A stretch of DNA of 64,000 bases from Hydrogenimonas sp. (GTDB lineage Bacteria > Campylobacterota > Campylobacteria > Campylobacterales > Hydrogenimonadaceae). The stretch lies in the NCBI GenBank assembly GCA_003945285.1, contig AP019005.1:806001-870000 (forward strand), written 5' to 3'. Within the stretch, counting starts at the first letter, position 1. The number at the start of each line of letters is the position of its first letter. The notes beneath the pieces were generated by a model. It was not told the DNA's origin. It did not search any database and was given only the letters and a program-made list of their open reading frames with translations. Shown here one piece after another: positions 4,301 through 57,535 of this stretch. Position numbers and translations under genes: made by a program.

Positions 4301-4442
4301 TTGTAGCGCTTACGCCGGGCGGGATTTACCCTGTCAGACACCAAAAATTGATGACAACTTCGACCGCTGACGGGTAAGCCGTTTTTTGAACGATATTTTT
4401 CCGTTCAAATCCCGTGATGTGACAAATTATGCGTAAGGGGAG
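4301..4442 (-). repeat. Dispersed repeat family 1, degenerate copy
   Basis: Read on the minus strand from 4442 it starts CTCCCCTTACGCATAATTTG and continues with TTTGAACGGAAAAATATCG and TTCAAAAAACGGC, the family 1 left half seen at 8235, 37981 and 50400. The hairpin TTGAACG/CGTTCAA is intact. The other end is not clear; CTTACGC at about 4309 may be its remnant. It lies between the secreted protein gene and acnB. Confidence 0.6.
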
Positions 4443-7650: not shown

Positions 7651-8175
7651 TCAATAGCGCCCGTCGATAATGTCGTAATCGTCCGGTATTTCGCACTCCA
7701 GCTTCGATGAATCGAAAGGCTCCGTCTTTACATTCTGGAAACGCAGGGTGACCCTGTTACCCATCTCATCCAGATAACTTATCGATTTCACACTATTTTG
7801 CGGATCTGTCGCGATCAGATATTTGGTACCGCCAAACTCTGCTTCGTAGTCGCCGTTTTTCCTCTTTTTCGCATTTTTCAGGATCTCCATCAGCGGTATA
7901 CTCTTTTTCAGTCTGAAGAGAGTCGCCTGCTCGAGTTCTGGTTCGATCACCCAGGCCTTGTGGTCTATCAGGCATATTGTCTTTTTAAGGGGAATAAAGT
8001 AGTCCCACTTGGCATCGGACGGCATCTTCATGAAGAGTCTGCCGCTGTAGTAGAGCTGTTTTTTTGTCTCTCTGTTCTGTACGACCTGTGTAAAGTCCGC
8101 ACTGAAATAGTCCGGTACAGGAAGGGAGGCCATCAGAAGTTTGGCCGCAAGCGCGGTCACTATTATTATTTTCAT
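7651..8175 (-). CDS. lolA: Outer membrane lipoprotein carrier LolA
   Basis: Periplasmic chaperone that takes lipoproteins from the LolCDE exporter to the outer membrane. The 174-residue protein has an N-terminal signal sequence, then the LolA start YFSADFTQVVQNRETKKQLYYSG, a LFMKMPSDAKWDYFIPLKKT segment and a GNRVTLRFQNV strand near the end. Length is slightly below the usual 180-200, typical of this phylum. A LolC/E-type permease gene lies about 3 kb away at 11020. Identification rests on these conserved strands; LolA is weakly conserved in sequence. Confidence 0.85.
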   Translation of the reverse strand: MKIIIVTALAAKLLMASLPVPDYFSADFTQVVQNRETKKQLYYSGRLFMKMPSDAKWDYFIPLKKTICLIDHKAWVIEPELEQATLFRLKKSIPLMEILKNAKKRKNGDYEAEFGGTKYLIATDPQNSVKSISYLDEMGNRVTLRFQNVKTEPFDSSKLECEIPDDYDIIDGRY

Positions 8176-8234: not shown

Positions 8235-8397
8235 CTGACCTTACGCAAAGTTTGTCACCCCCTGGATATGAGGGTAGAAGTATCGCTCGAAACCGTGTCT
8301 CTCCGCCAGGGGTGAAGGCGCCAGCGTTACATTTGGATTTTATACGGCGTCTGGCAGGGAAGATCCCGTTATGTGTGCAGATTTTGCGTAAGGTCAG
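8235..8397 (+). repeat. Dispersed repeat family 1, complete 163-bp copy
   Basis: This is the clearest member. The perfect 15-bp terminal inverted repeat CTGACCTTACGCAAA (8235-8249) is mirrored by TTTGCGTAAGGTCAG (8383-8397). The left half matches the other copies (TTTGTCACCCCCTGGATATG, then CGCTCGAAACCGTG). The right half (TGTGTGCAGATTTTGCG) matches the ends at 50236 and 57375. It fills the gap between lolA and secA and creates a false 62-residue extension upstream of the secA start. No target-site duplication is evident. Confidence 0.85.
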
Positions 8398-27392: not shown

Positions 27393-27554
27393 CTCTCCTT
27401 ACGTAAAATTTGCCAATCCATGGCTTATAGCTGAAAAGTGTTGTTAAAAAATCCGGTTTGCCCGAAAGCATGCCGAAAGCATCATGGTTTTTATATATTT
27501 GCAGCTTCGTGCAGGGCTAATCCAGTTTGGCATGCATATTTTGTGTATGGTTGG
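27393..27554 (+). repeat. Dispersed repeat family 1, 162-bp diverged copy
   Basis: The left end CTCTCCTTACGTAAAATTTG and the right end ATTTTGTGTATGGTTGG (ending 27554) are diverged versions of the 15-bp inverted ends. Inside are the family features TTAAAAAATCCGGTTTGCCC and GGCATGCATATTTTG. The length agrees with the 161-165 bp of other copies. It starts about 20 bases after the carbonic anhydrase terminator hairpin. Confidence 0.7.
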
Positions 27555-37980: not shown

Positions 37981-38070
37981 CTTTCTTTATACGCCAAATT
38001 TGTCAGCCCCTGGATTTGAGCGGAAAAATATCGTTCAAAAAACCGTGCTTGCCCGTCAGGGCGATTTTTA
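37981..38070 (+). repeat. Dispersed repeat family 1, left half only
   Basis: ACGCCAAATTTGTCAGCCCC, TGGATTTGAGCGGAAAAATA and TCGTTCAAAAAACCGTGCTT, then GCCCGTCAGGGCG, match the left halves at 8235, 50400 (minus) and 57535 (minus). The right terminal repeat is missing in the expected place near 38143. The remaining bases to 38229 hold no gene I can recognise. Confidence 0.65.
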
Positions 38071-47814: not shown

Positions 47815-47835
47815 AAAGCTGATGCTATGCAAAAA

Positions 47836-47929
47836 GCGTAACATCATCTCGAAATATACAATTTGAAGCTTTAGGGGGTGTAGGGGCGGCCGGTTCCCGC
47901 CAAAGCTTGCAAAGCTATGGCGGAGATGG
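47836..47929 (+). repeat. Dispersed repeat family 2, single unit
   Basis: GCGTAACATCATCTCGAAAT, then AGCTTTAGGGGGTGTAGGGG and GGTTCCCGCC, match the tandem units at 52057-52244. The third hairpin differs: AAAGCTTGCAAAGCTATGGCGG replaces the ATGGGC/GCCCAT stem, although AGATGGG is still present. It lies just after the DUF455 gene. The right boundary is set by analogy to the 94-bp unit. Confidence 0.65.
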
Positions 47930-50235: not shown

Positions 50236-50400
50236 CTGACCTTACGTAAAAATCTGTACACAGAACCGGATATGGAGTGAGGTATTTAGCAAAGTATACA
50301 AAAAAGAGCTGACACTTTATAACCGTGGCTTGTAAATGAGGCTCTTTGAACGATATTTTTCCGTTCAAACCCTATGGCCGACAACTTTACGCAAAGTCAG
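50236..50400 (-). repeat. Dispersed repeat family 1, 165-bp full copy
   Basis: The plus-strand ends are CTGACCTTACGTAAA (from 50236) and TTTACGCAAAGTCAG (ending 50400), matching the consensus terminal repeat with two to three changes. On the minus strand the left half reads GGGTTTGAACGGAAAAATAT, then CGTTCAAAGAGCC. It lies between lpxK and argB and ends 22 bases before the argB start, so it could influence argB expression. About 137 bases before it (50099-50235) hold no gene I can see. Confidence 0.8.
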
Positions 50401-51974: not shown

Positions 51975-52056
51975 CTCCTTTTGGATATAATCGCGCCAAA
52001 ATAACCGGACTACATTTTGCAAAACAGGCAAATCGATAACCGGCGTTGTGCAAACA

Positions 52057-52150
52057 GCGTAATATCATCCCGAAATCTGCGATTTCGCAGCTTTAGGAGG
52101 GTGCAGGGGACGGTCAGTCCCCGCCGGAAGATGGGCTTTGCCCGTCTTTC
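52057..52150 (+). repeat. Dispersed repeat family 2, tandem unit 1 (94 bp)
   Basis: The unit begins GCGTAATATCATCCCG and contains three hairpins: GAAATC-TGC-GATTTC, GGGGAC-GGTCA-GTCCCC, and an 11-bp stem in which AAGATGGGC faces GCCCGTCTT over TTT. It is followed at once by a second unit that differs at six positions. The arrangement lies between cutA and thrC. Confidence 0.9.
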
Positions 52151-52244
52151 GCGTAACATCATCTCGAAATCTGCGATTTCGTAGCTTTAGGGGGGTGCAG
52201 GGGACGGTCAGTCCCCGCCGAAAGATGGGCTTTGCCCATCTTTC
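52151..52244 (+). repeat. Dispersed repeat family 2, tandem unit 2 (94 bp)
   Basis: Exact length match to unit 1, starting GCGTAACATCATCTCG. Its third stem is perfect: GAAAGATGGGC pairs with GCCCATCTTTC over a TTT loop. A truncated third start, GCGTAACAT, follows at 52245-52253, about 23 bases before thrC. Confidence 0.9.
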
Positions 52245-52275
52245 GCGTAACATTAAATAGAAAGCAGGATGTTTT

Positions 52276-57374: not shown

Positions 57375-57535
57375 CTGACCTTACGCAAAATCTGCATGCC
57401 GGACGGAATTTGCAGCCGGACAATGTGTAGTATCGAAAATCTGCTGCTGCTTTCGGTGGCCTTACGGGAAAGCGCGGTTTTTTGACCTCTTTTTCCCCTT
57501 AAACCCCTGGGCTTACAGAATTTGCCTAAGAATAG
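57375..57535 (-). repeat. Dispersed repeat family 1, 161-bp copy
   Basis: The left plus-strand end CTGACCTTACGCAAA is perfect; the opposite end TTTGCCTAAGAATAG has three to four changes. On the minus strand the left half reads GGGGTTTAAGGGGAAAAAGA, then GGTCAAAAAACCGCGCTTTC, matching other copies. It separates the thioredoxin-like gene and sir2-like gene. Confidence 0.8.

Follow-up and report, generated by a model that had tools for sequence, protein, structure and literature searches.

Bacterial MITEs such as ERIC, Correia/NEMIS, RUP, YPAL, and Nezha are short, gene-less sequences with inverted ends and target duplications (PMC2229807, PMC3733652). CGTC-tagged REPs are simple stem-loops of 20–40 bp with a 4–5 nt loop and a CCA tail; they have been reported in Sulfurovum, and a dedicated transposase is not known for them (PMC3733652). 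Within the IS4 family, the ISPepr1 subgroup has ends of the form YT-AA-YTT---A and makes duplications of 7–8 bp in AT-rich targets (PMC2266710). The 165-bp repeat described here is a MITE, a small gene-less mobile element of vent bacteria (Hydrogenimonas). It resembles ERIC, Correia/NEMIS, RUP, YPAL, and Nezha in being often intergenic, in its palindromic fold and in its many copies. In contrast to these elements, its centre covaries across the order and is found with at least four unrelated sets of ends and duplication lengths. MITEs are a known kind of element; the new part is this conserved, covarying centre within different end sets. A literature search found no description of a covarying core common to MITEs of different transposase types.

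The window, i.e., the whole 64,000-nucleotide stretch of DNA that was analyzed, contains six members of the repeat family (Table 1). A preliminary description of the window had proposed four full and two partial copies, and all six were found where it had placed them and follow one consensus. This consensus of 165 bp was derived from 33 copies aligned in one orientation, folds nearly end to end (−79.9 kcal/mol) and carries the terminal inverted repeat CTGACCTTACGCAAA at both ends. A scan of the 2.19-Mb Hydrogenimonas genome, with the copy at 8235 as query, returned ~40 copies, and the stretches around such matches were used in the analysis. Full copies were mostly 161–165 bp long and the length peak is real, in agreement with the near-constant length noted in the window, apart from a 175–178 bp variant with an internal insert of ~13 bp. 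This insert or replacement lies around TAGAGGTGCCCTA in L017, L020, L026, L029, and L030, in either orientation and at slightly differing places. The end motif occurred seven times in the 64-kb window with up to three mismatches, where 1.6 occurrences were expected, and at 151 sites genome-wide with up to two mismatches, compared to four for the reversed control. The full window copies aligned with scores of 61–84, compared to at most 8.5 in 100 shuffles. Eight copies were 96–99% identical to the consensus, some reaching 98–99%, and the movement of the family is therefore recent. The identity of the window copies was 69–77%, with the exception of the 37990–38063 fragment (96%). The six window copies are thus old, diverged family members: the copies themselves are real, but the common motifs that had been read from them represent the family poorly.

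Table 1. Copies of the repeat in the window and the four sets of ends found around the core.
Feature	Position	Strand	Details
Full copy, 163 bp	8235..8397	+	Perfect 15-bp inverted ends; 128/168 identical to consensus (global alignment)
Left terminal inverted repeat CTGACCTTACGCAAA	8235..8249	+	
Right terminal inverted repeat	8383..8397	-	Reverse complement identical to left
Full copy, 162 bp, diverged	27393..27554	+	121/165 identical to consensus (global alignment)
Full copy, 165 bp, most diverged (69%)	50236..50400	-	116/167 identical to consensus (global alignment)
Full copy, 161 bp	57375..57535	-	125/165 identical (global alignment); 77% over 160 bp
Partial copy	4301..4442	-	120/169 (global alignment); BLAST 4312–4438, 74% over consensus 5–144
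Truncated copy	37981..38070	+	74-bp piece 37990–38063 = consensus 8–81, 96% identity
Type A ends, CTGAYSTTACGC			7–8 bp duplication; Hydrogenimonas, G083, G053 (three families)
Type B ends, TACCAATCC			3 bp duplication, 11/13; G007, G001, G005
Type C ends, CAGGGYTGTTTCA			10 bp duplication, 6/7; G246
Type D ends, GGCAYTGACTAAATA			8 bp duplication, perfect in 3/8 only; Nautiliaceae

The younger copies are flanked by perfect, AT-rich target duplications of 7–8 bp, such as TTAGGATA, TTAGTAA, TGACATCA, and TTGGAAA at full copies. Perfect duplications accompanied 17 of the 52 screened pairs of type A ends, a set that includes a few chance pairs; they were exactly 7 bp long in 13 cases and 8 bp in four. 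The shuffled means were 0.39 (7 bp) and 0.07 (8 bp), and none of 2000 shuffles was as good. One copy (L102, 201–364) has unlike ends, CTGACC on the left and CTGATG on the right, with a perfect 7-bp duplication, so both end variants are usable together. That no target duplication had been seen in the window does not hold for the family: window copies lack a perfect one because of their age, and two of them still match at six of seven positions (ACTATAA/ACTAAAA around the 8235 copy and TAATCAA/TTATCAA around the 27393 copy). The 8235 copy is located in the gap between a lolA-like gene (7651–8175, minus strand) and a secA-like gene (plus strand); the open reading frame of the latter is listed from 8252, its real start being probably further in. 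An empty orthologous site was also found. One copy of the element sits between pstA and pstB, within the pst operon, and this junction is empty in six other Hydrogenimonas genomes, where it measures 11–57 bp compared to the 165-bp element. Two further genomes have another short sequence at the junction. The inverted ends, the 7–8 bp duplications, the dispersed multiple copies, some of them recent, and the empty site bear out the earlier assignment of the repeat to non-autonomous transposable elements.

In other members of the genus Hydrogenimonas, repeats matched only the middle of the consensus, with different sequence outside. This core of ~110 bp is a covarying three-way-junction palindrome. 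An A5:T5 tract closes the junction with its two small hairpins. Further parts are a stem in which changes occur in pairs, a CGTT/CGTC that is left unpaired and, on the right side, a third hairpin. A covariance model of the core matched 42 of 399 genomes of the order. These belong to 12 of 87 genera and to seven or more families, and many of them have several copies, whereas the remaining 357 genomes gave no match at E 0.001. It still matched the old 27393 copy (model R1, 27411–27536, E 6e-5). Lineages known from hydrothermal vents, namely Hydrogenimonas, Nitratiruptor, and Nautiliaceae, are among those whose genomes carry the core. Among 83 copies, aligned by fitting to the covariance model so that the pairing counts lean towards structure, 92.1% of cells were paired, compared to 69.3% after shuffling and 38–55% in slid alignments. 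The same alignment had 687 cells with compensated double changes (223 shuffled) and a covariation score of 0.569 (0.178 shuffled, 0.06–0.11 slid). In an unfitted alignment of nine copies, double changes were already present in 19 of the 37 core pairs. Sequence is constrained as well: four pairs of the A/T tract were A:U in 77–82 of 82 copies, whereas adjoining pairs vary freely. When one genome of each GTDB species was scanned with a pattern, 53 stretches were obtained, ~40 of them from Campylobacterota and the rest at about chance level. No match to the core was obtained in a viral collection, and no Rfam family reached threshold over the element, which had weak chance matches only. In a strand test of RNA versus DNA structure, G-U mismatches outnumbered A-C mismatches (58 versus 22) in well-paired core positions across genomes; the outer arms of the copies in the own genome showed the same lean (17 versus 4), and this lean cannot separate RNA from DNA structure.

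The unpaired CGTC/CGTT of the core adjoins a 9-bp stem that begins with A:T pairs, which resembles CGTC-tagged REPs. The core differs from them in its size of ~110 bp, its three-way junction and its position inside transposon ends with duplications. Identity with these REPs was rejected, as their size, loop, and tail do not fit the consensus and structure of the core. The likeness bears on the suggestion, made in the preliminary description, that the repeat is REPIN-like, i.e., two REPs in inverted orientation that are mobilized by a RAYT, a Y1 tyrosine transposase. The element is indeed palindromic, intergenic, non-autonomous, and ~160 bp long, a single Y1_Tnp gene is present in the genome (at 1004553), and the CGTT/CGTC beside an A/T-starting stem recalls the REPs that are also present in Sulfurovum (PMC3733652). 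However, long inverted ends and clear duplications of 7–8 bp set it apart from REPINs, and the duplications argue against a Y1 transposase. The 4–5 nt loop and the CCA tail of CGTC REPs (PMC3733652) are also missing from the core. Moreover, the 33-bp inverted repeat on both sides of the sole Y1 gene, GGGGTCAGGTGATAACAATAAC, is unrelated, and the core model had no match within 1.5 kb on either side of this gene. A search for a RAYT or other transposase gene with the ends of the element, as had been recommended, found none in the genome and the relatives sampled. With duplications present and the Y1 gene not associated with the element, a REPIN/RAYT origin was rejected as highly improbable. The Y1_Tnp gene itself (G000:C1:1004553–1004882, L289; open frame of 265 aa) looks like a tyrosine transposase flanked by terminal inverted repeats, with an extra copy of GGGGTCAGGTGATAACAATAAC downstream.

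The strong covariation of the core could also indicate a structured non-coding RNA or a bidirectional terminator that is useful to the host and only looks mobile. The nearly invariant A/T tract, which closes a hairpin and is readable as a terminator on both strands, fits such a function, as does one terminator-like match on L002. This explanation conflicts with the target duplications and with the empty site in relatives, and the element has no Rfam match. It also conflicts with the way in which copies change. At the paired positions of 33 copies in the own genome, the consensus pair was altered on one side only in 167 cases (71 mismatches, 61 G-U and 35 A-C) and on both sides, with compensation, in 13; because most changes are uncompensated, the copies decay after landing. 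The gene context gives the same picture: neighboring genes were tandem in 15 cases, divergent in nine and convergent in four, which matches the background of the gaps in the window (15:9:5), and copies were not enriched at the 3′ ends of genes. Furthermore, one copy lies inside the pst operon, 24 bp before the predicted pstB frame. We therefore consider a host-serving RNA or terminator quite improbable. The preliminary description had regarded covariation of a conserved RNA, together with sites filled in all relatives, as evidence against mobility. Covariation of the core is indeed present across the order, but the relatives have an empty site: the element is a mobile element and a conserved structure at once. 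We infer that the core is kept by selection on the copies that still move and not by usefulness to the host. It may help the element to spread. Its A5:T5 tract suggests termination in both directions, although a strong terminator role is disfavored by the context of neighboring genes and by the insertion within the pst operon. The weakest step in our reasoning is the tentative proposal that the core acts as a hairpin that blocks transcription or pairs the ends, in which we have low confidence.

The flanks of ~60 copies in other genomes were read for end sequences. The same core was found within at least four sets of ends that are unrelated to one another and differ in duplication length (7–8, 3, 10, and 8 bp; Table 1), and for each of the four sets, at most eight of 2000 shuffles were as good at the respective length. 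With DDE transposases, it is the enzyme that sets the length of the duplication, and the four end sets therefore point to a minimum of three enzymes and probably to four. The C- and D-ended elements of Nautiliaceae closely resemble each other in their cores and subterminal arms (AACGAAAAAGTAAAAATA ... TATTTTTATCTTTGTAGTT), and their differences are confined to the sequence beyond these arms; ends have therefore been exchanged. One contig of G246 carries a C-ended and a D-ended element, each with a core match, that of the D-ended element being weak (19.5 bits). A core tree was built from 133 columns; its forks are weakly resolved, many of them not at all. This tree requires repeated changes of end type, with the 10-bp type (C) nesting among the 8-bp types (D), and its well-supported branches force at least 4 changes for A, 2 for B, 2 for C, and 4 for D.

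These end types could, in principle, be divergent versions of one end in a single transposon lineage, whose ends drifted along with its transposase. The end sets do cluster partly with taxon, and type A ends are common to three families (Hydrogenimonas, G083, and G053). However, duplications of 3, 7–8, 8, and 10 bp imply different enzymes, and cores of close similarity bear either C or D ends, both of which are also present within one genome; a single lineage is therefore unlikely. We consider it likely that the element is a MITE moved in trans, with an old and persistent core and with ends exchanged among several transposases. Several different transposases would have carried the core, and between close relatives the outer 15–35 bp on each side have been replaced. 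Such an exchange may proceed by nesting or by copying of one palindrome arm onto the other. The two ends of one copy had the same non-consensus base at five positions, compared to 0.62 expected (2 of 5000 shuffles); this concerted change within a copy fits inherited subfamilies or the copying of one arm onto the other. The recurrence of the old core inside at least four sets of ends suggests that the middle of the element, not its ends, is what persists.

The assignment of a transposase to each end type is putative. Movement of the Hydrogenimonas element is probably effected in trans by a transposase of the DDE type, similar to those of the ISPepr1 subgroup of the IS4 family. Such an enzyme would recognize CTGAYSTTACGCA ends and make AT-rich target duplications of 7–8 bp; the best candidate would be an IS4-family enzyme of this subgroup that is absent or lost in this genome. 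CTGATGTTACGCA agrees with the ISPepr1 end consensus YT-AA-YTT---A at six of eight conserved positions and differs at two. Like ISPepr1-type elements, the type A element has 5′-CT ends with A at position 4, Y at 7, T at 8 and A at 13, as well as 7–8 bp duplications in AT-rich targets. It differs in being gene-less and in being without the published A at 5 and T at 9. The likeness to IS4 is judged from ends and duplication length, and as the searches gave no gene for a related transposase bounded by such ends, the element is likened to the ISPepr1 type but not classed as a member. PF01609 (DDE_Tnp_1) had no match in this genome, and a DDE_Tnp_1 search of the genus Hydrogenimonas and the genus of G083 returned a few unrelated IS with other ends. 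No convincing IS-length inverted pairs of the end motif were found at the 36 unpaired sites of the own genome. For the type C and D end patterns, the pairs that stood out among the matches listed in Nautiliaceae and Nitratiruptor genomes were all of MITE length. Overall, neither the own genome nor the sampled relatives yielded an autonomous element bearing one of the four end sets, which agrees with the earlier remark that the window has no transposase. The autonomous partner of a MITE is often lost. Loss of the transposase is plausible here because Nautilia profundicola has been reported to be without typical transposons (PMC2628731).

MITEs are usually viewed as deletion relics of one transposon, which are defined by their ends and whose interior drifts freely. 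The present element reverses this picture, as its interior is conserved and its ends are replaceable. A possible, though rather speculative, interpretation is that the core is the true selfish unit, with neither a mobility gene nor fixed ends, and has repeatedly been adopted by different DDE transposons, template switching between the arms re-matching the ends. Since the whole element is one long palindrome, template switching could copy an end gained on one side to the opposite side; the two ends would then be alike once more, and the core could pass to another transposase. The element is also a case in which one can test how an element without genes could outlive its transposase by changing ends. 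The core, which is absent from Rfam, can serve as a marker for this class of repeats across vent Campylobacterota.

Other elements with related ends were also observed. A second MITE family of ~123 bp is present in the window (47819–47909, 52044–52253, and 2966–2998). Its ends are related (CTGATGTTACGCAAAGCTTGAGC ... GCGTAACGTCAG) and its interior, which includes a tandem 94-bp duplication, is unrelated; its end motif is spread over several Hydrogenimonas genomes. Pairs of ends ~435 bp apart (G000:C1:341596–342030 and a 434-bp pair starting at 1577438) are possibly nested elements. Finally, palindromes of 38–49 bp, hardly more than two type A ends, were located in Hydrogenimonas genomes (L036, 1720–1768; L069, 840–888; L070, 137–174).
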